Of a stretch of DNA of 64,000 nt, positions 9,601 to 47,749 are shown piece after piece (positions within the stretch are counted from its first letter, which is position 1; every line of letters starts with the position of its first letter). Under the pieces are notes generated by a model. The model saw only the letters and a list, made by a program, of their open reading frames with translations, had not been told where the DNA came from and did not search any database. A program made the translations under genes and the position numbers. Source of the DNA: an uncultured Bacteroidales bacterium (lineage in GTDB: Bacteria; Bacteroidota; Bacteroidia; Bacteroidales; UBA932); contig ONDF01000003.1 in assembly GCA_900316525.1 (NCBI GenBank), positions 62,001 through 126,000 on the forward strand, read 5' to 3'.

Positions 9601-9884
9601 TCGAGCACCACCAGGATCTGGCGGCGTCCCTGGACGGGAACCTGCTGCGTCAGATAGCCGAGGCAGGAGACTTCGAGGACAGCGTCGGGGTCGACGCTGA
9701 TGGAGAAGGATCCATCCGCGTCCGTGGTCACGCCGGTACTGCCGGAAAGCACGACGGCGCCGATGACGGGGCCGTTGGCATCCGAGACGGTACCGCGTAC
9801 TGCGATCTTTTGGGCATAGGCTCCAAAAGAGACGGTCACACCGAAGAGTATGACCAGTACGCTGAGCAGTTTCTTGGATAACAT
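6633..9884 (-). CDS. susC: SusC/RagA-family TonB-dependent outer-membrane transporter
   Basis: 1083 residues with a Sec signal ending GAYAQ (about residue 25). A carboxypeptidase-D-like domain follows (about 27-110), then the EDAVVVGYGTQKKANLTGAVS segment typical of SusC, a plug with SLNIRGWNSINGGSPLVLIDG, and a beta-barrel. It imports oligosaccharides across the outer membrane with energy from TonB-ExbBD. It is first in the operon with susD (1-nt overlap), two GLUG-type lipoproteins and the phosphodiester glycosidase. A promoter -7 box lies 35-42 nt upstream. The divergent DUF6377 gene is a candidate regulator. The substrate is not determined by the sequence. Confidence 0.95.
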   Translation of the reverse strand: MLSKKLLSVLVILFGVTVSFGAYAQKIAVRGTVSDANGPVIGAVVLSGSTGVTTDADGSFSISVDPDAVLEVSCLGYLTQQVPVQGRRQILVVLEEDQNILEDAVVVGYGTQKKANLTGAVSVVKADELKDRSALDVGHMLQGTVPGLNITSGSGRPGQAASLNIRGWNSINGGSPLVLIDGVEGDIQYLNPVDVESISVIKDAAAAAIYGARGSAGVILVTTKSGSREKEGRAKVTYSGRFGVTAPTTRTDYESRGYDSVYLNNLFWGTYSPGTKYANYSDADMQELWARRGDVVENPERPWVVITQENGRDVYNYYANTDWWHVLYNDVKPTTNHTISASGATNHVSYLVSGGYTYEQGMFKEKPDNYSRVNLRAKISFDVTDWLRIGSNTSYFNSSYFYPGQSGINNNFAKSSGHGLASFPATNPDGSTLYYTKYNGYTIMDGLLMLLAEDNFNEDKVDNLSETVDFTLKPFKGFTIKGDYTYTLKYNRYMNRAVPGHYSQYPNEIKTKDDASPFQDKLSESANTNIYQAYNLYATYENSFNQAHNLKLMAGVNYETRWIKDLGAIGYYLYSTELNDQNLIGADPNDPDGKKRMETSGGQNEYKLAGYFARLNYDYKGRYLVELNGRYDGSSRFLRGSRWVFSPSASLGWRVSEEPFFSPLRTWWDNFKIRFSYGQLGNQQMSSYYPAIRTVSTSGKSSYLLGGANLPQASLSAPVSSGLTWERSIQSNLGVDLAFLGNRLEFSAEGYIRDTKDMLTAGEPLPAVYGASTPQENTADLRTKGYEISLGWRDSFKLGPDAFHYGMNVVFSDYVSHITRFNNPDKLFAKTYWVGQKYGDIWGYHIDGLFATDEEAKSYAVDQSKVNDAQIFPNGLFAGDMKFADLDGDGAINKGAEKVGDSGDWQIIGNSKPRYNYGVNLNASWFGFDLAVFFHGIGKMDWYPAADARNFWGPFARPYMTFIPKDFLNDCWSEENPNAFFPRPRGYIAMNANRPLGVVNDRYLQNIGYLRLKNLTFGYTLPEKLTKKISISKLRLYFTGENLFYWAPGLHGKYVDPEMAMTGGNMRIYPWQKSYVFGIDITL

Positions 9885-27997: not shown

Positions 27998-29812
27998 ATG
28001 AAAAACCTCAGACTATTGATTGCGACGGCCGCCCTCCTGGCGACCGCCTGCACATGCACACCGAAACCGGCTCCCGAAGCACCACCCGAGAAAGACGACA
28101 CCGTCGCCGTGACCGGCGTCGCGATCACGCGCGCCAACCTGGAGCTCAACGTGGGCGAAGGGTTCCTTCTCGGCGCCCGCGTAACGCCGAAAAGTGCCAC
28201 CAACCCCCGCGTGACCTGGTCTTCCGACAAGGAAGCCGTCGCGACGGTGGGCAAGGAGAACGGCCAGGTCAAGGCCGTCTCCGCCGGCACGGCCGTCATC
28301 ACCGCCACGACGGTGGACGGCGGCTTCACCGCCACCTGCCCCGTCACGGTGAAGGGCGGCGCGACGCCGGATCCTCCGACCCCGCCCACGCCCTCCGACC
28401 CGGGCGCGCCGGCCGCCTATGGCGCCGTGCCCACGGAAGGGCAGCTCGCCTGGCAGCGCCAGGAGCTGCTGATGTTCTACCACTACGGCCAGGCCACCTT
28501 CTCCGGCTGGGACGGCGAGAATCCCAACTGCAACGGAAAAGCCTGGTCCGAGAGCCTCCTACTCCAGAACTACAAGCCCACGACCATCGACGCGGACCAG
28601 TGGGTGAAGACCGCCAAGGACAACGGCTTCGGCGAGATCATCATCACCGCCAAGCACCACGACGGCTTCTGCCTCTGGGACAATCCGGAGAGCACGACGG
28701 ACGTGGCCAACGCCGGCTGCTCTAACCACACGGACGTGCTCCAGGCCCTCCGCGAGGCCTGCAACAAGTACGGAGTGAACATGGGCATCTACCTCTCCCC
28801 CTGGGACCGGATGATCGAAGTGTCCGGGAAGAGCACGGCCGAGTACGAGAAGATGTACAAGAACGCCCTCAAGGACCTGATGACCAAGTACGCGCCCGTC
28901 GTGGAGATGTGGTTCGACGGCAATCACGCCGGGAACTTCGACTGGGCGTCCGTGAACCAGGTCGTCTTCGACGCCAACCCGCAGTGCGTCATCTTCTCCA
29001 ACGGCGGCCCCGGCTGCCGCTGGGTGGGCAATGAGGCCGGTGTCGCCGGGGAGACCGACTGGGCCACCCTGGACATCGCGGGCCGCCGGCTCACCCCGAG
29101 CAACCTGCCCGGCAATTACGAAGCCTACCTGGGCTCCGGCGACAAGGGCGCCGCCTCCTGGTGCCCGGCCGAGAGCGATTTCTCCATCCAGCAGATCGGC
29201 GACCACAACGGCTGGTTCTACGGTGCCAACGACAGCCGGAAGACAGCGAAGGAGCTGATGGACCTCTATTACAAGAGTGTCGGACGCAACTCCGTGTTCC
29301 TGATGAACGTCCCGCCGTCCGACAAGGGCGTCATCGACGACAAGGAAGTGAAGGTCATCGAGGCCTTTACGAAGATGCGGAACACGGTGTTCGCCACGAA
29401 CCTCGCCGACGGGGCCACCGCCACGGCGACGGCCGTCCGCGGCGACAATCCGGACAAATATGGCCCGGCGAAGATGCTGGACGGGAACTATGACTCCTAT
29501 TTCGCCACGAACGACGATGTCAAGGCCGTGGACATCGAATTCGAACTCGCCGGCAGCAAGACCTTCAACCGCGTGATGCTCCAGGAGTACATCCCGCTGG
29601 GCCAGCGCGTGGAAAGCTTCGAGATCCAGGTCCGTTCCGGCGGCAGCTGGAAGTCCTGGGGCAACGGCACCAAGAGCACCATCGGCCACAAGCGCATCGT
29701 CCTGGGAAGCACCGTCACGGCCGATGCCGTGCGCATCAAGATCAAATCCTCCCTCGCCAGCCCCGTCCTGAACGGGTTCGGGCTCTATAACGACACCGTC
29801 AGCGGACTCTGA
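27998..29812 (+). CDS. GH29 alpha-L-fucosidase lipoprotein with Big2 and F5/8C domains
   Basis: 604 residues with lipobox LATAC at Cys18. A BIG2-type immunoglobulin-like domain (about 38-120, VTWSSDKEAVATV...GTAVITATT) and a Pro-rich linker precede the GH29 barrel (about 145-450), which carries ITAKHHDGFCLW and the nucleophile Asp307 in MWFDGNH. The last ~140 residues form an F5/8 type C (discoidin-like) carbohydrate-binding domain. It hydrolyses alpha-L-fucosides, which are common on N-glycan cores and antennae. It lies 10 nt after the GH2 gene. Linkage preference is not visible from sequence. Confidence 0.92.
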   Translation: MKNLRLLIATAALLATACTCTPKPAPEAPPEKDDTVAVTGVAITRANLELNVGEGFLLGARVTPKSATNPRVTWSSDKEAVATVGKENGQVKAVSAGTAVITATTVDGGFTATCPVTVKGGATPDPPTPPTPSDPGAPAAYGAVPTEGQLAWQRQELLMFYHYGQATFSGWDGENPNCNGKAWSESLLLQNYKPTTIDADQWVKTAKDNGFGEIIITAKHHDGFCLWDNPESTTDVANAGCSNHTDVLQALREACNKYGVNMGIYLSPWDRMIEVSGKSTAEYEKMYKNALKDLMTKYAPVVEMWFDGNHAGNFDWASVNQVVFDANPQCVIFSNGGPGCRWVGNEAGVAGETDWATLDIAGRRLTPSNLPGNYEAYLGSGDKGAASWCPAESDFSIQQIGDHNGWFYGANDSRKTAKELMDLYYKSVGRNSVFLMNVPPSDKGVIDDKEVKVIEAFTKMRNTVFATNLADGATATATAVRGDNPDKYGPAKMLDGNYDSYFATNDDVKAVDIEFELAGSKTFNRVMLQEYIPLGQRVESFEIQVRSGGSWKSWGNGTKSTIGHKRIVLGSTVTADAVRIKIKSSLASPVLNGFGLYNDTVSGL

Positions 29813-30683: not shown

Positions 30684-33600
30684 ATGAGTTTCCAACTAAA
30701 GAAAGTCTTGACAAGGACCCTCTAGGTCCTGTCCGGGCTGTTCATCGCTGGCGGACTCGCCCTGGCCCAGAACCGGACCATCACGGGTACCGTCACCGAT
30801 GACTTCGGAGAACCGCTCATCGGCGCCAGTGTCGTCGTGGAGGGAGATTCCTCGGTGGGTGCCATCACCGACCTGGACGGTCGCTACTCGATCACCGTCC
30901 CGGCTTCGGCGGAGGCCCTCCGCTTCTCCTACATCGGCCAGAAAGACGCCGTCGAGCAGATCGGAGGCCGTTCGGTCATCGATGTCACCCTGGCGTCGGA
31001 CAACATCGCGCTCAACGCGACGGTGGTCACCGCCATGGGTATCCGCAAGGAGGAAAAATCCCTCTCCTACAATGTCCAGCAGGCCAAAGTGGAGACGGTG
31101 AGTCCGGTGGGTTCCTTCGTCAACGGCCTGAACGGCAAGGTGGCGGGCGTATCCATCAGCCAGTCCTCCACGGGCGCGGGCGGCGCATCCCGTATCGTGA
31201 TGCGCGGTTCCAAGTCCATCTCCAACAACAACAATGCGTTGTATGTGATCGACGGTATCCCGATGCAGTCCCTGCGCGGATCCCAGCCGGAAGGCGTCTA
31301 TGCCGGCGCCGGCCAGACCGGTGACGTGCTCGGTTCCCTGAACCAGGACGACATCGAGTCGATCTCCGTCCTCTCCGGCCCGTCCGCGGCGGCCCTGTAC
31401 GGTGCCAACGCGGCGAACGGCGTCATCATCATCACCACCAAGAAGGGCGGCAAGGACCGGCTGGACATCGACTACTCGAACTCCACGACCCTCTCCCGCG
31501 CCTATGTGATGCCGCAGTTCCAGAACACGTACGGCCCGTCCTCCCCCGGCTCCTACTACAGCTGGGGCGCGAAGCTGGACACCCCGTCCACCTACAACCC
31601 GCGCGACTTCTTCCAGACGGGCGTGAACGAGGTGAACTCCATCGCCCTCTCGACGGGTACCGACCGCAGCCAGACCTACGTCTCCGCCGCCGTCGCGAAC
31701 GCCCGTGGCATCGTCCACAACAACAACGTGGACCGCTACAACCTCTCCTTCCGCAACACCACCGACCTCGTGAAGGACATCCTTACGCTGGATGTGAACA
31801 TGACCTACGGCCGCGTGGACGAGCAGAACATGATCGCCCAGGGCGAATACGGCAACCCGATCGTCCCGGTGTACCTGTTCCCGGCGGGAGACGACTTCTC
31901 CAAGGTGGGCGTGTACGAGCGCTATGACGCCGGCCGCAACATCAAGACGCAGTACTGGCCCTACGACTTCGAGCACTCGATGCAGAATCCCTACTGGATC
32001 ACCGAGCACCAGAATTGGCAGAACCAGAAGAACCGTATGATGGGTTCCGGACAGCTCTCCTACAAGCCCTTCAAGTGGCTGACCCTGAGCGCCCGCGCCA
32101 AGTACGACCGCACCGACGAGGTCCAGGAGCGCAAGTTCGACGCCTCCACGAACACCCTCTTCACCGAAGGTTCCAAGCACGGCTTCTACGGCCGCGTGAA
32201 CCAGTACACCGAGCAGAAGTTCGGCGAGGTCCTCGCCACCTTCAACAAGTATTTCGGTGACAACGTGGTGAACCTCTCCGGGGTGGTGGGCGCCAACATC
32301 GACGACATCACCTTCCGGTCGGACAACGTCTCCGGTCCGCTGAAGACCGTCAACAACAAGTTCGACCTGAGCAACATCGACCAGAACAACTCCCACACGC
32401 TGCTTTCCTCCCGCGGTTACCGCTACCAGAACCAGTCCGTGTTCGCGAACGCCCAGCTGGGCTATCGCAGCAAGGTCTATCTGGACATGACCTACCGCGT
32501 GGACTGGAACTCCGCGCTTTATACCGCCGGCGGCATCACCTACCCGACCATCGGCCTTTCCGGCATCGTGACCGAACTCCTTCCGTTCCTGAAGAGCTCC
32601 TTCTTCCCGTACTGGAAGATCCGCGGCTCCTACTCGGAAGTGGGTAACGCGCCGGATCCGTCCCTGTTCCTGCTGGATCCCCGCCACGAGCAGGTGAGCG
32701 GCAACGTCGCCACCAGCGCCCGCCGCCGCAACACCGAACTCGTCCCTGAGCGCACGAAGTCCTGGGAACTCGGTACGAACATCCATTTCTTCGACAGCAA
32801 GCTGCAGATCGATGCGACTTACTACTACGCGAAGACCTTCAACCAGTTCTACGATCCCCGTATCTCCACCACCTCCCTCAGCACGGACATGTACCTGAAC
32901 GGCGGCCGCGTGGACAACACCGGCGTCGAGATGGCTCTCCGCTTCGACGACAGCCGCGGCAAGTGGAACTATGGCACCTACCTCACCTGGACCTGGAACA
33001 AGAACAAGATCGTGGACCTGCAGTTCCGCGATCCCGTGAGCGGCACGATGCGTGACGGCAACGGCCTGCCCATGGGCGGTTTCGGCGGCGTGAACAACTT
33101 CCTGTACGAAGGCGGCACCCTCGGTGACGTGTATGTGACCACGATCGCCACCGACGAGCACGGCTTCTACCAGCTGAACGCCGACGGCATGATCATCGCC
33201 GACTACGACGAGAAGGACATGATCTACGCCGGTTCCACTGACGCCAAGCATCGCCTCTCCTGGGGCGGTCACCTGGGCTGGAACGGCCTCACCCTGAACT
33301 GGCTGTTCACTGCGCGCCTGGGCGGCATCGCCATCTCCAAGACGCAGGCCATCCTGGACTACTACGGTGTGTCCCAGGATACCGCCGACGCCCGCGAGAA
33401 GGGCTTCTTCGAGTTCAACGGCATGAAGACCTCCGACGTCCAGGGCTACTACCAGACCCTCGGCATCCGCGACGGCATCATGAGCCAGTACGTCTATTCC
33501 GCCACGAACGCCCGTCTCGCCGAGGTCTCCCTGAACTATGACCTGCCGGTCAAGAAGCTCGGCGCCTGGGTCAAGGGCATCACCCTTTCCGTGGTGGGCA

Positions 33601-34211
33601 ACAACCTCGCCATGCTGTACCTCAAGGCCCCGTTCGATCCGGAAATGACCTCCAACGTGGGTACTTACAACCAGGGCATCGACTACTTCATGCAGCCTTC
33701 CACCCGGAGCCTCGGCTTCGCCGTGAAGCTCCGCTTCGGCGGCAGCACCGCCGCGAAGGCCGCCCCGGCCACCGCCCCCGTCTACATTCCTTCCGAGCCC
33801 AAGGTGGTCGAGAAGGTCGTGGAGAAGGTGGTCGAGAAGGAAGTGGTCAAGGAAGTCGTGAAGGAAGTCAAGGTTCCCGCCGGAACCGTGGATTCCTACA
33901 ATGACGACCTCTACTTCGTCATCGGCAAGGCCGAAATCCGGCCCGAGGAAGCCTTCAAGCTCGGCCGCATCTGCCAGGTCCTCGCCGAGAACCCGGATGC
34001 GAAGATCACCGTCACCGGTTACGCCGACAGCGGCACCGGTACCGACGAGATCAACGAGGAACTCTCCCAGCAGCGCGCCGCCAAGGTGGTCGACATGCTC
34101 GTCAAGGCCGGCATCGCCCGCGACCGCATCTCCTGGAGCTCCGTCGCCGGAGACCGGGATGCTTCCCTGAGCCCCGAATCCAACCGCGTCGCCGTATGCA
34201 TCGTCAAATAA
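30684..34211 (+). CDS. SusC-type TonB-dependent transporter fused to an OmpA-like domain; amber codon in signal peptide
   Basis: The frame from ATG 30684 encodes 1175 codons including one TAG at codon 14. Around it the text reads MSFQLKKVLTRTL-stop-VLSGLFIAGGLALAQN, a normal signal peptide broken by the stop. A carboxypeptidase-D-like domain (about 29-110), plug (VLSGPSAAALYGANAANGVIIITTKKGG) and barrel follow, with the last strand at SLGFAVKLRF. Then comes a KVVEKVVEK-type charged linker and an OmpA_C domain (about 1070-1175; GYADSGTGTDEINEELSQQR). No later ATG, GTG or TTG restores a signal peptide; the first GTG is at 30837, inside the first domain. Either the gene is inactive or the stop is suppressed or erroneous. 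It is followed by susD, GH18 and two LamG lipoproteins. Confidence 0.88.
30723..30725 (+). other. In-frame amber (TAG) codon in the SusC-OmpA signal peptide
   Basis: Counting codons from ATG 30684 gives TAG as codon 14, and the frame then continues open to 34211. A single T-to-A change from TTG (Leu) would explain it. TAG is an ordinary stop elsewhere in the window (for example at 11720-11722, 18035-18037, 27985-27987 and 51016-51018), so genome-wide recoding is unlikely. Confidence 0.9.
33801..33875 (+). repeat. Repetitive Val/Glu/Lys linker coding tract
   Basis: Near-identical 9-12 nt units (AAGGTGGTCGAG, AAGGTCGTGGAG and variants) encode KVVE-type repeats between the SusC barrel and the OmpA-like domain. 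The linker would have to span from the barrel to the peptidoglycan. Its repeat nature allows length change. Confidence 0.75.
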
Positions 34212-34222
34212 GCATGTGCCCT

Positions 34223-35803
34223 ATGAAACAGAACATTTCCAAATATATGCTTGCGGCGGTCGCAGCGCTGACCGTCCTTGCCGGGTGCACCAAGAACTTT
34301 GAAGAGCTGGCCAAGAACGTCTACGGCGTGAGCGACGAGCAGATGGCCCAGGACGGTCTCGCCCTCGGCGGCATGCTCCAGCAGCTCGAGCGTTCCGTCA
34401 TCATCTACCGCGACGGAACCTGGCTGGACTCCGACTACCAGATCATGTACAACCTGTGCGCCGAGACCTGGTGCGGCTACATGGCCCCGACCCTGAGCGA
34501 CGGCCACAACGCCGGCTGGGACGTGAACGACGGCTGGCACCGCCGGATGTTCACCGTCAAGTACCAGTATGCGATGGGCGGTTACACGAACTTCGAAACC
34601 GCCGCCCTCGAATACGGGATGGAGAACGAACTGGCGCTCGCCAAGGTCCTGAAAGTGGCCTCGATGCACCAGGTGGCCGACTACTACGGCCCGATCGCCT
34701 ATGCCCACACCGGCGACCTCTCCAACCTCTACGACCCGCTCGACCAGGTCTATGTCCAGTTCTTCGACGAACTCGACGAGTCCATCGAGATTCTCGAGAA
34801 GGTGGCCGCCTCCGGCGCCAAGCTCCTCGAGGACTACGACCTCGTGTACGGCGGCGACGCCGCCAAGTGGGTCCGCTTCGCGAACTCCCTGCGCCTCCGC
34901 CTGGCGATGCGCGTCAGCTATGCCGACCCGTCCCTCGCCCGTGAAGAGGCCGAGAAGTCCATAGGCAGCCCCTTCGGCGTCGTCGTCGCGAACAGCGACA
35001 ACGCAGTCATCGCCGAGCCCGGCGTCCGTCATCCGATCTACACCATCAACGTGGAGTTCAACGACGCGGACACCCAGGTGGGCGCTTCCCTGGATTCCTA
35101 CCTGAACGGTTACAACGATCCCCGCATGTTCCTGTATGCGAAGCCCGCCGGCGACGGCAAGCTCCACGGCGTGCGTCCGGGCATCTCCCCGTCCAGCTGG
35201 ACCAACTACAAGAACACCGCCGCGAAGGTCTCCGCCCCGAACGCCGGTATCTACAAGATCTGCTGGCTGAACGCCGCCGAAGTGGCCTTCCTCCGCGCCG
35301 AAGGCGCCCTGAAGGGCTGGAACATGGGCGGTACGGCCCAGGAGTTCTACGAGCAGGGCATCAAGCTTTCCTTCGAGGAATGGGGTGCCGACGGCGCCGC
35401 CGCCTACATCGCGAACAAGACGGCCCAGCCGGCTGCATTCCGCGACAATGTGGCCCGTGCCCATGCCAACGCTCCTTCCACCGTCACGATCGCATGGAAC
35501 AACGGCGACTCCGACGAGAAGAAGCTCGAGAAGATCGCCACCCAGAAGTGGATCGCCCTGTTCCCGAACAGCGCCGAGGCCTGGGCGGAGTACCGCCGCC
35601 TCCACTATCCGGTCCTCATCGCCCCGGCCAACAATTTCTCCAACGGTGTCGTGAATACCGAGCAGGGTATCCGCCGCGTCCCGTATCCCGTGTCCGAGCA
35701 GACTGACAACCCCGAGGGCTATGCCTCCGGCGTCGCGGCCCTGGGCGGTGCGGACAACGCCGGCGTGCGCCTGTGGTGGGACGCCAAACCGTTCAACAAC
35801 TAA
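34223..35803 (+). CDS. SusD-like (SusD_2 type) nutrient-binding lipoprotein
   Basis: 526 residues from ATG 34223 (MKQNISKYM), lipobox TVLAGC at Cys22; in-frame ATGs at 34214 and 34196 add residues without improving the signal, and the latter overlaps susC. The segment CTKNFEELAKN after the lipobox and the helical body fit the SusD_2 branch of the RagB/SusD family, which often pairs with endoglycosidase loci. It is the surface partner of the SusC-OmpA transporter 11 nt upstream and precedes the GH18 gene by 14 nt. Confidence 0.9.
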   Translation: MKQNISKYMLAAVAALTVLAGCTKNFEELAKNVYGVSDEQMAQDGLALGGMLQQLERSVIIYRDGTWLDSDYQIMYNLCAETWCGYMAPTLSDGHNAGWDVNDGWHRRMFTVKYQYAMGGYTNFETAALEYGMENELALAKVLKVASMHQVADYYGPIAYAHTGDLSNLYDPLDQVYVQFFDELDESIEILEKVAASGAKLLEDYDLVYGGDAAKWVRFANSLRLRLAMRVSYADPSLAREEAEKSIGSPFGVVVANSDNAVIAEPGVRHPIYTINVEFNDADTQVGASLDSYLNGYNDPRMFLYAKPAGDGKLHGVRPGISPSSWTNYKNTAAKVSAPNAGIYKICWLNAAEVAFLRAEGALKGWNMGGTAQEFYEQGIKLSFEEWGADGAAAYIANKTAQPAAFRDNVARAHANAPSTVTIAWNNGDSDEKKLEKIATQKWIALFPNSAEAWAEYRRLHYPVLIAPANNFSNGVVNTEQGIRRVPYPVSEQTDNPEGYASGVAALGGADNAGVRLWWDAKPFNN

Positions 35804-35817
35804 AGCCCGCGAGAAAG

Positions 35818-36948
35818 ATGAAAAAGATACTGAGCATCATCCCCGCCGCCCTGGCCCTGATTGCGGTCCAGAGTTGCGACACCAAGGTGGAGAAGCTTGA
35901 AATCCAGCACTTCAACACGTACGATCTCGAGAGGGACGCCGAGGAGCCCTACTACAAGGACCTCCGCGCCTGGAAAGAGTCCAAGCACACCATCTCCTAC
36001 GTGTATTTTGCCCGCTGGGCCCCGCCGGAAGGCGCGACAAGCCTCTTCATCGAATACAAGACCATGCGTCCGCGCCTGATGGCCCTGCCGGATTCGCTGG
36101 ACATCGTGAACCTGTGGATGGGCACGCCCATGAAGGAGGAGTACACCGACGCCTGCTTCTACGGCAACGTGAAGAACCCCGAAACCGGCGAGATCGAGCG
36201 CGCCCCGATGCACACCTACGACTACTCCCCGAACGCCTATGCGGACCTCGAGTACTGTCAGAAAGTGAAGGGCACCCGCTTCGTGATGCACGCCGACGCC
36301 TCCCACTACGGCCAGGAGTTCGAACTGGACGGCAAGTACTGGAAGGTGGAGGGCGGCAACGAGGAAAGCATCCGCGCCTACGGCCGTCTCGTGGTGGACA
36401 TCGTGAACACCCACGGCCTGGACGGCGTGGACTTCGACTATGAAGGCTGGGGTTCCCAGCAGATTTTCTGGGTCATCGACGAAGTGGGCAAGTACTTCGG
36501 CCCGAAGGGCTCCGACCCGTCCAAGCTCCTGATCATCGACTACTTCGGCGGCTATCCCGGCGCCGATGTCGAGCCGTACATCAACTATCTCGTGAAACAG
36601 GCCTACTCCATGCAGGGCTCCGGTGTCGGCGGCCCCGGCTGGTGCCCCGAATCCAAGATGGTCTACTGCGAGCAGTACGAGCAGTCCTCCGGGGACGGCC
36701 CGAACTACCTCAACGGCGGCTATCCCACCTCGATGACCACCGAGGGCGGCGCGAAGATGTACACCCTCGAGCGCTACGCCCGCTATGCCAACGAGGCCGG
36801 GAACGGCGAAGGCGGCTTCGGTGCCTACTACATCGACAACGACTATGACAACGGCGTGGACGCGCTCCAGAAGAAGGGCTATTCCGGCAACTACCAGAAT
36901 TACGCCTTCCTCCGCCGCGCCATCCAGATCGTGAACCCTGCCAAGTAA
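35818..36948 (+). CDS. GH18 endo-beta-N-acetylglucosaminidase-like lipoprotein
   Basis: 376 residues from ATG 35818, lipobox AVQSC at Cys20. The GH18 signature DGVDFDYE lies at 202-209, with catalytic acid Glu209 and the Asp residues needed for substrate-assisted catalysis present, so the enzyme looks active. The single short barrel next to a SusD_2 protein and DUF1735-type lipoproteins matches loci in Bacteroides where GH18 enzymes cut N-glycans between the two core GlcNAc residues. The companion mannosidases downstream agree with this. Chitinase activity is the alternative. Confidence 0.87.
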   Translation: MKKILSIIPAALALIAVQSCDTKVEKLEIQHFNTYDLERDAEEPYYKDLRAWKESKHTISYVYFARWAPPEGATSLFIEYKTMRPRLMALPDSLDIVNLWMGTPMKEEYTDACFYGNVKNPETGEIERAPMHTYDYSPNAYADLEYCQKVKGTRFVMHADASHYGQEFELDGKYWKVEGGNEESIRAYGRLVVDIVNTHGLDGVDFDYEGWGSQQIFWVIDEVGKYFGPKGSDPSKLLIIDYFGGYPGADVEPYINYLVKQAYSMQGSGVGGPGWCPESKMVYCEQYEQSSGDGPNYLNGGYPTSMTTEGGAKMYTLERYARYANEAGNGEGGFGAYYIDNDYDNGVDALQKKGYSGNYQNYAFLRRAIQIVNPAK

Positions 36949-36958
36949 GACGCGCCTT

Positions 36959-38200
36959 ATGAAAAAGTATATTTTACTCCTTTCCGCCGCGGCCCTTTGC
37001 CTCGCAGCGTGCACCCAAAAGGCCGACCATTTCGACTATGGCCAGGAGATCGCCCTGATCACCGGGACCGACGCCTCGCCGATTTCCAAGGACCAGATCC
37101 TGGCGGACGAGATTCCGATCTCCTACAACTTCTCCGTCTCCCTGACAGGCGTCGCCCAGGAGGACGTCCAGGTCCATATCGCCTATGACAGCCTGGCCGT
37201 CGTCCGTTACAACGCCGTGAACAAGACGAACTACGCCGCCGTCCCGCGCAACACCTTCGTGATCAACGACGAATTCGTCACCATCAAGAAGGGAACCGCG
37301 ACCTCCCCGATGACCTCCGTCACCCTGCGTGACAACTCGTTCATCCAGGAAGGCGTCAACTACGTGATTCCGCTCGCCGTCGCCTACATGGACGGTGGCA
37401 AGGCCGATATCCTGGACGCCTCCAAGAACCTGTTCATCAAGATCGGAAAGACCATGGAGACCTTCTCCCTGGACATCCCGGGCATCGGCGTGTACTCCAC
37501 GCACAGCCTCGGCGCCGGTTACAGCCTGAACACCTGGACCCTCGAGATCAAGGCCCATCCGTACAACATGAAGTCCCGTGGCAACGACCAGCTGTGCCGG
37601 TTCTGCTGCTGGAACGAAGACGGCGGCGGCCAGGTGCTGCTCCGCTTCAACGAGAACGGCAAGCCTTGGAAGACCCTGGACATCGTAGCTCCCTCCGGCC
37701 GTTACGTCACCGGTTCCACCGGCGACCCGGCCACCGGCTCCTTCGAGCAGAACCAGTGGTATATGATCTCCATCGTCTGGGACGGCTCCAACATGAGCGT
37801 CTACATCAACGGCGAGAAGGACACCCCCACCGAGAATTCCGTCTCCGGCAACCAGGCTTTCAACCTGAACCGCTTCGAGATCGGCATGTCCTGGGGTGGC
37901 TACGGTTCTTCCCAGAGCTACACCGGCCGCATGGCCGAGATGCGCATCTGGAACATCGCCCGCAGCGCCAGCGACATCGCCTCCACGCAGTGTTCGGTGG
38001 ATCCCAAGTCCGAGGGCCTCGTCGGCTACTGGAAGATGAACGAAGGCGAAGGCCACGTCTTCCACGACTCCGTCGCCGGCAACGACATGGACTGGGACAA
38101 GTCCGAGCGCCAGAAGGACGAGAACAACTACGTCACCACCCCCGAAGCCGGGGCCTCCATCGTCTGGGTCAAGGACGAAAAGAACAAGTGTGCACAATAA
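36959..38200 (+). CDS. DUF1735 + LamG-type surface glycan-binding lipoprotein
   Basis: 413 residues, lipobox LAAC at Cys18. An N-terminal DUF1735 domain (about 25-155) is followed by a concanavalin/LamG_3-like beta sandwich (about 175-400) with the conserved pattern YTGRMAEMRIWNIARSASDI and GLVGYWKMNEGEGHVFHD. It has no hydrolase motif. Such proteins sit on the cell surface and hold glycan or glycoprotein for the GH18 enzyme and the SusCD importer. It lies 10 nt after GH18 and just before a larger LamG relative. Confidence 0.8.
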   Translation: MKKYILLLSAAALCLAACTQKADHFDYGQEIALITGTDASPISKDQILADEIPISYNFSVSLTGVAQEDVQVHIAYDSLAVVRYNAVNKTNYAAVPRNTFVINDEFVTIKKGTATSPMTSVTLRDNSFIQEGVNYVIPLAVAYMDGGKADILDASKNLFIKIGKTMETFSLDIPGIGVYSTHSLGAGYSLNTWTLEIKAHPYNMKSRGNDQLCRFCCWNEDGGGQVLLRFNENGKPWKTLDIVAPSGRYVTGSTGDPATGSFEQNQWYMISIVWDGSNMSVYINGEKDTPTENSVSGNQAFNLNRFEIGMSWGGYGSSQSYTGRMAEMRIWNIARSASDIASTQCSVDPKSEGLVGYWKMNEGEGHVFHDSVAGNDMDWDKSERQKDENNYVTTPEAGASIVWVKDEKNKCAQ

Positions 38201-38221
38201 ATGAACAAAACTGATAATTCC

Positions 38222-40921
38222 ATGAAAAAGTTATTTACTGCTTTCGCACTGGGGCTCCTCCTCGTGGGGTGCGCCCGGGAGTATGACGACTCCGAGCTGC
38301 GCAACCGGGTCACCACGCTCGAGACCAAGGTAGGCAACCTGGAGGCCAACATGAAGGCCATCCAGACCGCGACCAACGACGGCATGTTCGTCCAGAAGGT
38401 CGAGGAACTCACCAAGGACGGAAAGGTCGTCGGTGTGACCGTCACCTACACGACCGGCCAGGTCGTGACCTTCGAAATCGCCGGCGCCGGCGCCGAGACC
38501 AACCTCTCCGCCATCCGCAACGCCGCGGGCAAGCTCTGCTGGGCCCTGAACGGCCAGATCATCCAGGTGGACGGCAAGGACCTCGAAGTGGGCCAGACCC
38601 CGACTTTCTCCGTGGAAAACGGCCACCTGTTCGTCACCGTGGACGGCAAGAAGACCGATGTCGGCGCGATGGGCGGCGGCCTCGGCGATGCCATCTTCAA
38701 GGACATCAAGGTCACCGGCAGCGCCGTGGTCCTGACGATGGACGACGGCAGCACCATCGAGATTCCCTTCGCCAAGGCGTTCAAGCTTGTCATCGCGAAG
38801 ACCCAGTATGCCGTGACCACCACCGACCCGATCGAGATTCCCTACACCGTGGAGAACAAGACCGAGAACACCGTGGTGGACGTCTTCACCGACGCCAACT
38901 ATGAGGCTGCGGTCGATGCCGAAAAGATCACCATCACCCCGCTCGCGGTCGCGAAGGGTTCCGCCCTCGCCTATGCCGACTCCCAGGTGGGTCTGACCTC
39001 CATCGTGAAGCTCACCTTCGGCGCCGAAGCCGAACCTGACACCTTCGAAATCACCGACCAGAGCATCGAGTACGTCGCCGAGGCCAAGGACGCCACCGTC
39101 GAGGCCCACGCCGTCTCCAACCTCGCCTTCGAGGTGAAGCCGCAGGTGGACTGGATCCACTTCGTGGAGACCCGCGCCACCAACTACACCATCGTCCTCA
39201 AGGTCGATGACAACCCCACCGAGGAAATCCGCACCGGTGCCGTGAAGATCGTCCGCGCCGGCACCGAGGATGTCCTCCAGACCATCACCATCGCCCAGAA
39301 GGCCGGCGAGCCGGCCCCTGGCCCGGACATGGAGCCTTGGACGCCCGCCGGTTGGGACAAGGTGTTCGACATGTCCAACTGGCAGGTCAACTCCACCTTC
39401 CGTTGGCAGGACGGTCCCGAACTGAATCCGAGCGCTATCACCTTCCAGTGGAAGTTCTGGTCCAACAAGTGGAACAACTGCAAGTTCAACGACCAGGGCG
39501 AAGAGAACGGCCAGAAGTATCAGCTGTTCTGCAACCGACTCAGCGAAATCGCCCAGTACGATGAATCCAACGCCCTCCTCCTCCGCTTCTCCAACGACGG
39601 TGACGCCGACGGCCAGTTGTGCCTCAATGCCGACTTCCTCCTGGGCCGGGGCCAGCAGAAGCAGGTCGCCAAGGACGGCAAGCCGTACGTGTGGCCGACC
39701 GGCGAATGGGTGACCCTCACCATCACCTGCGACGGCACCAAGGTCTATGTCTATGACGACGAGGAACTGGTCGCCTCTTACAACGCCAACCCGGTCAGCG
39801 CCTGGAAGCTCGGTCGCTTCGACCTCTCCATGACGTGGGATGACGGCAGCAAGTGGCCCCGCTCCCAGGCCTTCAACGGCTACATCGCCTACGCCCGTGT
39901 GTGGAGCCGCGCCCTCAGTGTCGAGGACATCGCCGCCACCCTGTGCGAAGTGCCCGCCGACAAGGCCGAAGGCCTGGAGGTCAACTGGGTTTTCGACGGC
40001 AAGGAGGACAAGTACATCGCCAACACCGTGGCGAAGAACGACGCCCTCGGTCTCGACTTCACCGACTGCTGGGACGGAAACGGTAACCGCCAGGACAACG
40101 GTGATGCCGCCGCTGCCGCTTGGAAGACCCTTGCAGATGCCGGAATGGAAGGCATTTGCCTCCGCGAGAAGGGCACCACGCCTGTGACGCCTGACCCGCC
40201 GCAGCCGACCGGAAACATGAAGGCCATCTACTGGGGCAACCCCCAGGCTGCAGCCTGGTACAAGGAGTTCAACCGCCCTGTCAGCCTGCCCGACGGCTAT
40301 TCGATGACTATCCACTTCTACTATGAGGCCGCCAAGCAGCAGCGTCTGGGCAACTTCGGCGACAAGAGCGAAGCCCCCTGCAACATGCTCCGCTTCGGCG
40401 AGGCCGGCAACAACAACCAGCTCGAATGGATGGTCGACACAGGTGCTGGCCGCATCAAGATCCGCGCTTCCAAGGAAGCCGTTCCCGGCCAGTGGAATGC
40501 CGTGACCCTGACGGCGGGTGCCGACGGCTACAAGATGTACATCAACGGCGAAGCCGCTGGTGCCGATGCGTCCGCCTACCGCACCGGGACTTCCTTCCAG
40601 GGCTTCGAATTCGCGAACTCCTGGGGAACGGCCTACCGTTCCGCCTTCGACGGCGCCATGTGCTACATCTCCCTCTGGAGCAAGCAGCTCAGCGACGAGG
40701 AAGTGGCCGCCAACGTGTTCACGACGCCTTCTGGCAACGGTCTAGAGGCCTTCTGGCCCATGAACGAGGGTGAAGGTTTCGTGTTCAAGGACCAGACCGG
40801 GAAATATGATGACATCGACCTCCACTACATGACCCGTTGCGACGACGAAGTCAACTACGTCGACGTGGACGTTACCCCCTACGTGGAGTGGAGAGAGTAT
40901 CCGGCCCTGAAAACCGAATAA
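38222..40921 (+). CDS. DUF4988/BACON lipoprotein with two LamG-type domains
   Basis: About 899 residues from ATG 38222 (lipobox LLVGC at Cys17); an ATG at 38201 directly follows the previous stop and is an alternative. A short coiled coil (LRNRVTTLETKVGNLEANM) opens a DUF4988-like region, then a BACON-like domain (about 290-370, DWIHFVE), then two LamG_3-like sandwiches (about 385-600 and 670-880), each ending in the GLE...W motif also seen in its neighbour. Likely a multi-domain surface glycan/glycoprotein-binding protein. A strong terminator follows 21 nt after its stop, closing the operon. Confidence 0.78.
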   Translation: MKKLFTAFALGLLLVGCAREYDDSELRNRVTTLETKVGNLEANMKAIQTATNDGMFVQKVEELTKDGKVVGVTVTYTTGQVVTFEIAGAGAETNLSAIRNAAGKLCWALNGQIIQVDGKDLEVGQTPTFSVENGHLFVTVDGKKTDVGAMGGGLGDAIFKDIKVTGSAVVLTMDDGSTIEIPFAKAFKLVIAKTQYAVTTTDPIEIPYTVENKTENTVVDVFTDANYEAAVDAEKITITPLAVAKGSALAYADSQVGLTSIVKLTFGAEAEPDTFEITDQSIEYVAEAKDATVEAHAVSNLAFEVKPQVDWIHFVETRATNYTIVLKVDDNPTEEIRTGAVKIVRAGTEDVLQTITIAQKAGEPAPGPDMEPWTPAGWDKVFDMSNWQVNSTFRWQDGPELNPSAITFQWKFWSNKWNNCKFNDQGEENGQKYQLFCNRLSEIAQYDESNALLLRFSNDGDADGQLCLNADFLLGRGQQKQVAKDGKPYVWPTGEWVTLTITCDGTKVYVYDDEELVASYNANPVSAWKLGRFDLSMTWDDGSKWPRSQAFNGYIAYARVWSRALSVEDIAATLCEVPADKAEGLEVNWVFDGKEDKYIANTVAKNDALGLDFTDCWDGNGNRQDNGDAAAAAWKTLADAGMEGICLREKGTTPVTPDPPQPTGNMKAIYWGNPQAAAWYKEFNRPVSLPDGYSMTIHFYYEAAKQQRLGNFGDKSEAPCNMLRFGEAGNNNQLEWMVDTGAGRIKIRASKEAVPGQWNAVTLTAGADGYKMYINGEAAGADASAYRTGTSFQGFEFANSWGTAYRSAFDGAMCYISLWSKQLSDEEVAANVFTTPSGNGLEAFWPMNEGEGFVFKDQTGKYDDIDLHYMTRCDDEVNYVDVDVTPYVEWREYPALKTE

Positions 40922-40941
40922 TCCCCCTTTACCGTCGCTTG

Positions 40942-40973
40942 GCAGGAGGCCCTTCGGGGTCTCCTGCTTTGTT
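40942..40973 (+). terminator. Intrinsic terminator after the second susCD operon
   Basis: A GC-rich hairpin GCAGGAG-GCCC, tetraloop TTCG, closing with GGGTCTCCTGC is followed by TTTGTTATT. It ends the susC-susD-GH18-LamG operon. Confidence 0.8.
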
Positions 40974-40998
40974 ATTCCCGGGGTTTTTCGTAATTTTG
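40968..40998 (+). promoter_or_regulatory. Promoter of the first GH92 gene (TTTG-N19-TAATTTTG)
   Basis: TTTG at 40968-40971 and TAATTTTG at 40991-40998 with a 19-nt spacer fit the consensus very well. The start would be near 41003, 17 nt before ATG 41020. The -33 element overlaps the T-tract of the preceding terminator. Confidence 0.65.
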
Positions 40999-41019
40999 AA
41001 TGTTAATAGCACTCGATCC

Positions 41020-43317
41020 ATGCGTAGAATCCTTCTCCTGACTTCCGTCCTGCTGAGCCTGTCCCTGCAGGCCCAGACCGAATATGTGAACCCCTTCATC
41101 GGCACGACCAACTTCGGGGCGTGCAACCCCGGCGCCGTGACGCCGAACGGGCTGATGAGCGTGACACCGTTCAATGTGATGGGCTCCAGCCTCAACACCT
41201 GGGACAAGGACAGCCGGTGGTGGTCCACACCCTATGTGGAAGAGAACCGCTATTTCACGGGTTACGCGCACGTGAACCTCTCCGGCGTCGGCTGCCCGGA
41301 ACTCGGTTCCATCCTCACGATGCCGACGACAGGGCCGCTGGAGGTCGATTATCACACCTACGGAAGCGAGTATTCCGACGAGCAGGCGCATCCCGGCTAC
41401 TATTCCAACCGGCTGGCGACCGGCATCCTGACGGAAGCCACCGCCACCACCCGGACCTCGCTGGAGCGCTATACCTTCCCGGCGGGCGCCGGCAACATCC
41501 TTGTGAACCTGGGCGAAGGCCTGACCAACGAGTCCGGCGCGATGGTCCGCCGGGTTTCCACGACGGAAATCGAGGGAGTCAAGCTGATGGGCACGTTCTG
41601 CTACAACCGGGACGCCGTGTTTCCGCTGTACTTCGTCCTCCGCGTAAGCAAGACGCCGGACCGCTGCGGCTACTGGAAGAAACAGCGGCCGATGACCGCC
41701 GAGGCCGCCTGGGATGCCGATGCAGGCCGATACAAGCTGTACGAGGCCTATTCCCGGGACCTGTCCGGCGAGGACATCGGCTACTGGTTCCGCTACGAGA
41801 ACCTCGCCGAGGGCGAGCAGGTGATGCTGCAGGTGGGCGTTTCCTTCGTGAGCATCGACAATGCGCGGGAGAACCTGGAGGCCGAACAGAAGGGATTCGA
41901 ATTCGACGCGGTCGCATCCGCCGCGGAAGAGACCTGGAAGGAACAGCTGGGGCGCATCCGCGTGACGGGCGGCACCGACGACCAGAAAACCATCTTCTAC
42001 ACCGCCCTGTACCACGCCTTGATCCATCCGAACATCCTGGAAGACGTGAACGGGGAGTATCCGCTGATGGAATTCGGGAATCCGGAGGCGGTGAACAGCA
42101 TCCCGTTCGCGACGGGTCGCAACGGGGTCGCCCAGCGCAAGCTGCGCGCCCGTGGCCTGGGCCGCGTCCCCGAGGGGCAGCACCGCTACACGGTGTTCTC
42201 CCTGTGGGACACCTGCCGGAACCTGCACCAGCTGCTGACGCTGCTCTATCCGGAGAAGCAGATCGACATGGCCCGGTCCGTGGTGAACATGTACCGCGAA
42301 TGGGGCTGGATGCCCAAATGGGAGCTATACGGCCGCGAGACCTTCACGATGGAGGGCGACCCGGTGATCCCGATGCTGACGGACACCTACCTCAAGGGCC
42401 TGACGGACTTTGACATCGCCACGGCCTACGAGGCTTTCCTGAAGTCCGCCGATACGCCGGGCGAGAAGAACCGGATGCGGCCGGACGTGGACCCGTACAT
42501 CGAGCGGGGCTATGTGCCGCTGGGCTGGTTCGCGCAGGATTTCTCCGGCGACAACTCCGTTTCCCACGCCCTGGAGTACTACATGGCCGATGCGGCGCTC
42601 GCCCGCCTGGCGGAGGCCTTGGGGCATCCCGAGGATGCCGCCAAGTACCGCCAGCGCTCGCTGGGCTACAAGCACTACTGGTCCCCGGAATACGGCTGCC
42701 TGCGGCCACTGAAGAAGGACGGCTCCTTCCTAGAGCCGTTCAACCCGCGCCAGGGCGAGAATTTCGAGCCCGTGCCGGGCTTCCACGAGGGAAGCGCCTG
42801 GAACTACACGTTCTATGTGCCCCACGATGTGGACGGCCTCATCAAGCTCACAGGCGGCTCCAAGGCCTTTGTGAAGGCCCTGAACAAGATTTTCAACGAG
42901 GGCCTGTACGATCCCGCCAACGAGCCGGACATCGCCTATCCGTACCTATACAGCCGCGTGAAGGGCGAGCAGTGGCGCACCTGGAGCACGGTGCACGATC
43001 TCCTGGCCAAGCACTATCACAATGCGCCGAACGGCATCCCCGGCAATGACGACACCGGCACGATGTCCGCCTGGGCCGTGTTCTCGATGATGGGCTTCTA
43101 CCCCGACTGCCCGGGCGACCCGTCCTACACGCTCACCCTGCCGGTCTTTGACCGCGTGGACATCGACCTGCCCGGCGGCAAGACCCTGACGGTGACGAAA
43201 GCCGCCGGCGCCAAGCCTGCCAAGGGCACGACTGCCCGCCTCGGCAACCGCAAAGTCTCCGACTACCGCATTTCCCACGACACCCTCGTGAACGCCGGCA
43301 CCATCCGTTGGCAGTAA
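41020..43317 (+). CDS. GH92 alpha-mannosidase (first copy)
   Basis: 765 residues from ATG 41020 (MRRILLLTSVLL), a Sec signal ending SLQAQ and no lipobox, so probably periplasmic. GH92 marks: TEYVNPFIGT at the mature N-terminus, FSLWDTCRNLHQLLTLLYPE, and GNDDTGTMSAWAVFSMMGFYP near the C-terminus with the acidic residues of the calcium-dependent inverting active site. A frame upstream of 41020 is open but runs over the terminator. It trims alpha-mannose from N-glycans. It is the most divergent of the three GH92s here. Its stop is 3 nt from the convergent XRE gene. Confidence 0.92.
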   Translation: MRRILLLTSVLLSLSLQAQTEYVNPFIGTTNFGACNPGAVTPNGLMSVTPFNVMGSSLNTWDKDSRWWSTPYVEENRYFTGYAHVNLSGVGCPELGSILTMPTTGPLEVDYHTYGSEYSDEQAHPGYYSNRLATGILTEATATTRTSLERYTFPAGAGNILVNLGEGLTNESGAMVRRVSTTEIEGVKLMGTFCYNRDAVFPLYFVLRVSKTPDRCGYWKKQRPMTAEAAWDADAGRYKLYEAYSRDLSGEDIGYWFRYENLAEGEQVMLQVGVSFVSIDNARENLEAEQKGFEFDAVASAAEETWKEQLGRIRVTGGTDDQKTIFYTALYHALIHPNILEDVNGEYPLMEFGNPEAVNSIPFATGRNGVAQRKLRARGLGRVPEGQHRYTVFSLWDTCRNLHQLLTLLYPEKQIDMARSVVNMYREWGWMPKWELYGRETFTMEGDPVIPMLTDTYLKGLTDFDIATAYEAFLKSADTPGEKNRMRPDVDPYIERGYVPLGWFAQDFSGDNSVSHALEYYMADAALARLAEALGHPEDAAKYRQRSLGYKHYWSPEYGCLRPLKKDGSFLEPFNPRQGENFEPVPGFHEGSAWNYTFYVPHDVDGLIKLTGGSKAFVKALNKIFNEGLYDPANEPDIAYPYLYSRVKGEQWRTWSTVHDLLAKHYHNAPNGIPGNDDTGTMSAWAVFSMMGFYPDCPGDPSYTLTLPVFDRVDIDLPGGKTLTVTKAAGAKPAKGTTARLGNRKVSDYRISHDTLVNAGTIRWQ

Positions 43318-46318: not shown

Positions 46319-47749
46319 ATGAAACCAAAGACAATACTAATCCTGACCTTCCTTGCGCTGGTCTCCTGCGCGCCCAGACCGCAACAGGAGGAAAAAACCA
46401 CGAAACTGTACACCGACCGTCCTCCCGTGGAGGAGCGCGCCTTCGTCTCCACCGCCGTCGACGCGGCCACGGAGGCCATCGCCGCGCAGATCACCCACCC
46501 CAAGCTGCAGGAGATGTTACGGAAATGCTTCCCGAACACCCTGGACACCACCGTCCACTACTTCGAGGACGAGGACGGCCGTCCCGACACGTTCGTCTAC
46601 ACCGGCGACATCCCGGCGATGTGGCTCCGCGACTCCGGCGCCCAGGTCTGGCCGTACGTGGAGTATGCCAATGACGACGAGGCGCTGAAAAAGATGCTCG
46701 CCGGCGTCATCAACCGCCAGTTCAAGTGCATCCTCATCGACCCGTACGCCAACGCCTTCAACGTGGAGCCCATCGGCCCGGCGGACAAGACCGACCTCCC
46801 GGCGCCGGGCCCGTACGTGTTCGAGCGCAAGTGGGAGATCGACTCGCACTGCTACCCGGTGCGCCTAGCCTACGCCTACTGGAAGAAAACCGGGGACACC
46901 TCCGTCTTCGGCGACCTCTGGATGGACACCGCCAAGACCATCCTCGCCACCTTCAAGGAGCAGCAGCGCAAGGAAGGCCACGGCAGCTACTGGTTCCTCC
47001 GGAAGACCGACCGCCAGCTGGACACCAAATGCGTGGTGGGACGCGGCAACCCGGTGAAGCCCGTGGGGCTCATCGCCTCCGCCTTCCGTCCCTCCGACGA
47101 CGCCACGACCTTCGAATTCCTGGTGCCCTCCAACTTCATGGCCGTCACCACTTTGCGCAAGATGGCGGAGATCCTCACGACCGTCAACGCCCAGCCGGAA
47201 ATGGCCGCCGAGTGCGCCGCCCTCGCCGCCGAGGTGGAGCAGGCGCTGCAGCAATATGCCGTCGTGGACCATCCCGAATTCGGGAAGATCTATGCCTATG
47301 AGGTCGACGGCTTCGGCTCCCACCAGCTGATGGACGACGCCAACGTCCCGTCCCTCCTCGCCCTCGGCTACCTGGATCCGGAGCGGTTCAACGACCCGGT
47401 CTACCTGAACACCCGGAAGTTCGTCTGGAGCGAGAACAATCCCTACTTCCACCGCGGAAAGGCCGGCGAAGGCATCGGCGGCCCGCACATCGGCATCGAG
47501 AATGTGTGGCCGATGTCCATCATGATGAAGGCCTTCACGGCGCAGGACGACGACGAAATCCGCGCCTGCCTCATCCAGCTTCTCCGCACCGACGCCGGCA
47601 CCGGCTTCATGCACGAGTCCTTCAACAAGGACGATGCGAACGACTTCACCCGGCCCTGGTTCGCCTGGCAGAACACCCTCTTCGGCGAACTTGTCGTGAA
47701 ACTCGTCCATGACGGAAAACTTGAACTCCTCAACAACCTGCCCCAATGA
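46319..47749 (+). CDS. GH125 exo-alpha-1,6-mannosidase lipoprotein
   Basis: 476 residues with lipobox ALVSC at Cys17. GH125 (formerly DUF1237) marks: DIPAMWLRDSGAQVWPYV near 98, FERKWEIDSHCYP, KCVVGRGNP, and GGPHIGIENVWPMSIMMKA near the C-terminus. The family is metal-independent and removes terminal alpha-1,6-linked mannose, complementing the calcium-dependent GH92 enzymes. The last 4 nt overlap the following GH92 start (ATGA), so the pair is translationally coupled. Confidence 0.95.
   Translation: MKPKTILILTFLALVSCAPRPQQEEKTTKLYTDRPPVEERAFVSTAVDAATEAIAAQITHPKLQEMLRKCFPNTLDTTVHYFEDEDGRPDTFVYTGDIPAMWLRDSGAQVWPYVEYANDDEALKKMLAGVINRQFKCILIDPYANAFNVEPIGPADKTDLPAPGPYVFERKWEIDSHCYPVRLAYAYWKKTGDTSVFGDLWMDTAKTILATFKEQQRKEGHGSYWFLRKTDRQLDTKCVVGRGNPVKPVGLIASAFRPSDDATTFEFLVPSNFMAVTTLRKMAEILTTVNAQPEMAAECAALAAEVEQALQQYAVVDHPEFGKIYAYEVDGFGSHQLMDDANVPSLLALGYLDPERFNDPVYLNTRKFVWSENNPYFHRGKAGEGIGGPHIGIENVWPMSIMMKAFTAQDDDEIRACLIQLLRTDAGTGFMHESFNKDDANDFTRPWFAWQNTLFGELVVKLVHDGKLELLNNLPQ

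Follow-up and report, generated by a model that had tools for sequence, protein, structure and literature searches.

A SusC-type transporter gene with a predicted C-terminal peptidoglycan anchor, and the exchange of its tail among SusC genes of one Bacteroidales genus

The stretch of DNA analyzed here (the window) covers 64,000 nucleotides of contig ONDF01000003.1 from an uncultured Bacteroidales bacterium. A cluster at 22514-47749 contains a SusC-OmpA gene (30684-34211, forward strand, stop codon 34209-34211), directly followed 3' by the gene for the SusC partner, a SusD-like lid lipoprotein (34226-35803, forward strand; PF12741, 539 bits for the open reading frame 34196-35803, with the lipoprotein start at 34226 taken from the sequence). 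Also on the forward strand are a GH29 alpha-L-fucosidase with Big_2 and F5/8 domains (27998-29812; PF01120, PF02368, and PF00754), a GH18 endo-beta-N-acetylglucosaminidase-like protein of the BT1044/EndoS type (35773-36948; PF23916 and PF16141), two LamG-type surface proteins (36959-40921; one with BT_3987-like_N and Laminin_G_3 domains, the other with DUF4988, BACON, and Laminin_G_3), a GH92 alpha-mannosidase (40837-43317; PF07971, 505 bits), and a GH125 alpha-mannosidase (46319-47749; PF06824, 562 bits). GH3, GH2, and DUF1573 members complete the cluster. The GH29, GH18, GH92, and GH125 enzymes suggest a locus built for the N-glycans of host glycoproteins, the probable substrate.

The SusC-OmpA gene begins with a start codon and signal peptide (30684-30770, from the sequence and its translation). 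The SusC part (30771-33737) comprises a CarboxypepD_reg-like domain, the TonB plug, and the barrel up to its terminal Phe, and is followed by a linker with VVEKVVEKVVEKEVVKEVVKEV repeats that is predicted to be disordered (33738-33884) and by an OmpA-type domain predicted to bind peptidoglycan (33885-34208). The SusC/RagA model of NCBIfam (TIGR04056) scores 595 bits over the first thousand residues against a curated cut-off of 368, which supports the assignment to SusC made in the first-pass annotation. The SusC signature (TIGR04057) reaches 58 bits against a cut-off of 46, and the Pfam models for the TonB plug (PF07715) and the N-terminal carboxypeptidase-regulatory-like domain (PF13715) both match. 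The barrel ends in SLGFAVKLRF at about 33737, where KLRF is as expected of a last strand; then come GGSTAAKAAPATAPVYIPSEPK, the VVEKVVEKVVEKEVVKEVVKEV repeat, and the OmpA domain. As that annotation had also read from the letters, no stop interrupts this run: a stop-free frame from 30726 to 34208 joins barrel, linker, and OmpA domain, the linker being flexible, rich in Val, Glu, and Lys, and about 45-50 residues long. The Pfam OmpA model (PF00691, cut-off 27.2) gives 56.7 bits with the long protein as query and 60.9 bits with 33720-34211 alone, so that a domain scan confirms the proposed OmpA_C-type domain. The two proposed ligand positions are an Asp in GYADSG (codon 34026-34028) and an Arg in SQQRAA (codon 34074-34076), and in the alignment each pairs with the corresponding residue of OmpA-family structures. 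A single gene product holds an ordinary SusC barrel, the flexible linker, and an OmpA domain that is complete. A chance or low-complexity match caused by the Val/Glu/Lys linker is ruled out, as the OmpA domain itself scores and folds.

The first-pass annotation was right about the architecture and overlooked two things, the movement of the tail between SusC genes and a premature stop in the signal peptide. This TAG (30723-30725) is in frame at codon 14 from the natural start at 30684, and the next in-frame start, a GTG at 30837, lies beyond the signal peptide. If the TAG is real, the window copy would lack export, having no usable start before the mature protein, and it may be inactive. That this copy is dead or misread, as a recent pseudogene or through a sequencing or assembly error, is a serious possibility to which we give somewhat less than an even chance. 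Four relatives (L015-L018) have an open signal-peptide stretch without the TAG, and the window copy alone lacks an intact open frame with a signal peptide. Against this reading, the 1161 codons after the TAG are open and under purifying selection (dN/dS 0.14 against L015), and the genome's two further fusions are stop-free and so unaffected. Any loss of the window copy would therefore be recent; because the relatives are open at this position and selection is intact elsewhere, the TAG is a recent loss, a population variant, or an error. It bears on no other result of the analysis.

The mature window protein was modelled with AlphaFold2, together with 23 relatives, and the tail was also modelled alone. 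The full model is of moderate quality (mean pLDDT 66.5, pTM 0.63) and shows a plug, a barrel, a linker, and a C-terminal domain with the order beta-alpha-beta-alpha-beta-beta; about 50 linker residues (mature residues 992-1041) have a pLDDT below 50. In Foldseek the barrel model first matches SusCD structures (5fq6, BT2261-2264; E 4.6e-52, TM 0.71 by target). The model of the tail alone is better (pLDDT 82) and best matches 9uu2, an OmpA-c-like domain with 36% identity to the tail, and 3td5, an Acinetobacter OmpA domain holding a peptidoglycan pentapeptide (both Z 16.9 over 107 residues, rmsd 1.7-1.8). In this model strand two leads into the loop that holds the Asp, and the Arg belongs to the second helix. 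Compared with Rv0899 or PorE, the loop that separates the Asp from the Arg has one extra residue, as it does in 9uu2. The Asp and the Arg are invariant across 31 rows of aligned tails and porins, as are a Thr, a Gly, and an Asn in the loop with the Asp.

OmpA domains with such an Asp and Arg bind the diaminopimelate of peptidoglycan. From the fold and the conserved residues, pinning to peptidoglycan is the best inference. A protein ligand, for example another envelope protein, in place of peptidoglycan appears improbable: the fold matches do include OmpA-like domains with protein partners (Pal/TolB and YfiB/YfiR), but the Asp, the Arg, and the surrounding loop are invariant across tails on unrelated barrels, as for a ligand common to all. 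One fusion, in a Prevotellaceae genome (L085:2731-6642), has an OmpA domain that lacks both the Asp and the domain end, and judging by these residues its tail perhaps no longer binds peptidoglycan.

The window genome encodes eight OmpA-domain genes, three of which are SusC fusions: the window gene and stop-free genes on contig 33 (1193 codons) and contig 49 (1275 codons). About 39 SusC genes of this genome are above the TIGR04056 cut-off, and all 30 of the other SusC proteins extracted from it end in or at the last barrel strand, in agreement with the earlier remark that SusC proteins normally stop at the barrel. Further fusions are found in named genomes, nearly all of them Bacteroidales from ruminant digestive tracts. 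All 23 full-length relatives, from many assemblies, pass both the SusC and the OmpA models, a co-occurrence of the two halves far above chance. The assembly of the window genome is fragmented (84 contigs), and an assembly join of two genes would give the appearance of a fusion. We consider the chance of this negligible, because the identical join occurs in 23 full-length genes of many independent assemblies, with sequences that diverge on either side of it, in three genes of the window genome, and in about 90 genes of the genus; this recurrence rules the join out.

The last count comes from a search for other TonB-dependent receptors with a C-terminal OmpA domain, which the first-pass annotation had proposed. 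A match spanning both halves is present in 34 of 300 genomes of the same genus (about 90 genes by row count), closer examination of nine genomes showed as many as nine fusions in a single one, and about 11% of the sampled species of the genus carry a fusion. No fusion was detected outside the window's own genome in samples drawn at the level of the order, the class, and the phylum (each of 393-395 genomes), in scans that scored few candidates per genome with a profile that leans to the window genus, so that rare cases may escape. As a control, the same samples contain many SusC barrel ends, most with a stop right past the last strand. A wide spread across Bacteroidota is thus not seen in these samples. 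Two fusions in genomes named as Bacteroidaceae (L030) and Prevotellaceae (L085) suggest a few cases outside the genus. With about 90 genes of one genus bearing this tail, SusC-OmpA is a lineage-level architecture and no one-off, and the earlier statement that no standard family has this architecture is upheld.

Shorter tailed SusC proteins of about 1085 residues (L178:4935-8183 and L179) are without the N-terminal regulatory-like part, and their TIGR04056 match begins at model position 106. In another family, a SusC barrel end (G848:C43:34193-34498) lies in a 1634-codon open frame with no stop past the barrel and may represent a different type of C-terminal extension.

SusD is the next gene in nine of ten other fusions scanned. 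In one locus (L120:5265-7021, reverse strand) the fusion is followed by a BACON-domain protein, not SusD. The contig-33 fusion is in a cluster similar to that of the window, based on inspection of translated frames, and the contig-49 fusion is beside other genes; with these different neighbors, the tail is not tied to one substrate.

Barrels and tails have different histories, and tails resemble one another much more closely than barrels do. The window and contig-49 fusions are about 65% alike in the OmpA domain and 28% overall. In a tree of 53 fused and tailless barrels there are 14 changes between the two states, at least 11 of which are forced by well-supported branches; barrel and tail trees are unrooted, and these changes are without direction. 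Monophyly of the fused barrels is rejected (AU p 2.6e-90, in a reduced set with a careful search). The 30 tails with a Val/Glu/Lys linker all fall into a single clade (97/89) that is distinct from ordinary OmpA porins. One clade of these tails on scattered barrels therefore indicates one module joined to many SusC genes. One ancient fusion followed by whole-gene duplication is ruled out, as the tails form one clade but the barrels do not. Six tails with an Ala-rich, coiled-coil-like linker (L121, L122, L123, L175, L176, and L177) form a separate OmpA clade (99/95). A single origin of all fused tails, both linker classes included, has an AU p of 0.43. Ala-rich coiled-coil-like linkers also occur in two ordinary porins of the same genus (L182 and L184).

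Close pairs show the same at a finer scale. A tailless SusC of the window genome (L148), which ends at the last strand with SusD directly after, is 83% identical to a fused gene (L023), and the latter is closer to it than to other fused relatives. The window type and the contig-49 type each have a tailless relative as well (L165, 79% identity, and L168, 72% identity, respectively). Two paralogous fusions of genome G180 (L173 and L174) are 59% identical in the barrel, at a dS of 1.4, while their OmpA domains are identical as proteins, at a dS of 0.23. Another pair (L169 and L170) shares 29% in the barrel and 87% in the OmpA domain. Genome G012 has the other tail class on the same barrel family (L123, 66% to L173 in the barrel and 50% in the OmpA domain). 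The window itself contains a second SusC gene (6633-9884, reverse strand; L141), which is tailless and ends in FGIDITL; one of its relatives is tailless (L138) and another fused (L118).

Within one genus, many unrelated SusC genes carry the tail where they adjoin SusD, and it behaves as an exchangeable module. The pattern of the tails fits copying or gene conversion between tails with some exchange of whole tails. Since the tail has spread between unrelated importer genes, it is probably a plug-in wall anchor. A fuller account, which we hold tentatively and at a little below even chances, is that, in one genus of gut Bacteroidales, linker and OmpA domain form an anchor cassette that travels from one SusC gene to another at the junction with SusD, through copying among paralogues and swaps of the two tail classes. 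Species would in this way select which importers, out of dozens, are anchored to the wall, and these importers would double as outer-membrane tethers. The tail could instead be selfish or neutral, spreading by gene conversion among SusC genes while doing little. It is patchy, exchanged within genomes, and present or absent on near-identical barrels, as such an element would be, but the OmpA domain is under purifying selection (dN/dS 0.09 for L010 against L115) and the ligand residues are invariant, and we regard a tail of little function as unlikely. Comparing the window gene with L015 gives a dN/dS of 0.13 for the barrel and of 0.26 for the OmpA domain, values that indicate that both parts are kept.

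We consider it likely that the product of the window gene is a TonB-dependent transporter of the SusC type whose C-terminus carries a predicted anchor for peptidoglycan. Outer-membrane barrels have both termini on the periplasmic side. From this position the linker would allow the OmpA domain to contact the wall, where the conserved Asp and Arg would hold diaminopimelate, and every SusCD complex would thereby be tethered to peptidoglycan. Likely outcomes of such a tether would be less lateral movement and retention in the cell rather than loss to vesicles; it could also hold the transporter in place when TonB pulls on the plug. We think that retention and tethering are likelier than a role specific to TonB; the two functions suggested in the first-pass annotation, ordering import complexes and helping TonB pull, are speculative. 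The tail is not essential for import, as only about 11% of the sampled species of the genus carry it and close orthologues either lost it or never acquired it. The window genome also encodes ordinary OmpA-type proteins, so wall tethering is independent of the fusions. Binding to peptidoglycan is also reported for ExbD (review: PMC11658791), which makes it conceivable that the TonB path contacts the wall at each of its two ends.

The fusion resembles known SusC/RagA systems (TIGR04056; the SusCD utilisomes BT2261-2264 and levan BT1762-1763) in its plug, N-terminal carboxypeptidase-regulatory-like domain, barrel, SusD partner, and glycan locus. However, an ordinary SusC ends at the last barrel strand, whereas the window protein continues into the linker and OmpA domain. 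Bacteroidales porins of the OmpA/OprF type have a barrel, a flexible linker, and an OmpA domain in the same order and with the same ligand residues, and VEKIVEK-type linkers are present in two porin relatives (L035 and L042); unlike the fusion, these proteins have a small porin barrel in place of a SusC transporter. In OmpM of Veillonella, one outer-membrane protein unites nutrient uptake and peptidoglycan tethering (PMC10628300). The fusion would join the same two functions in principle, its tethering being predicted, although OmpM is a passive trimeric porin of another phylum with an N-terminal SLH domain; a Pfam scan found no SLH domain in the window protein. Pal, MotB, TssL/TagL, and PorE also use an OmpA-like fold to fix a machine to the wall, but none of them is a TonB-dependent transporter. 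The closest functional parallels are the OmpA porins and OmpM of Veillonella.

A published description of a SusC with an OmpA tail was not found among the open-access papers searched in full text, and OmpA is unmentioned in a review of these transporters. The component families are well known; we rate a SusC with a mobile accessory OmpA domain as new and unusual. SusCD complexes are the chief route of glycan uptake in gut Bacteroidota, and the predicted anchor bears on what keeps TonB pull, outer membrane, and wall together. Natural pairs of near-identical SusC proteins with and without the anchor make the effect of tethering on import, mobility, and vesicle loss testable. The tail is a clear case of a domain spreading between paralogous membrane proteins, and it would offer a ready-made tether for engineering barrels in Bacteroides.
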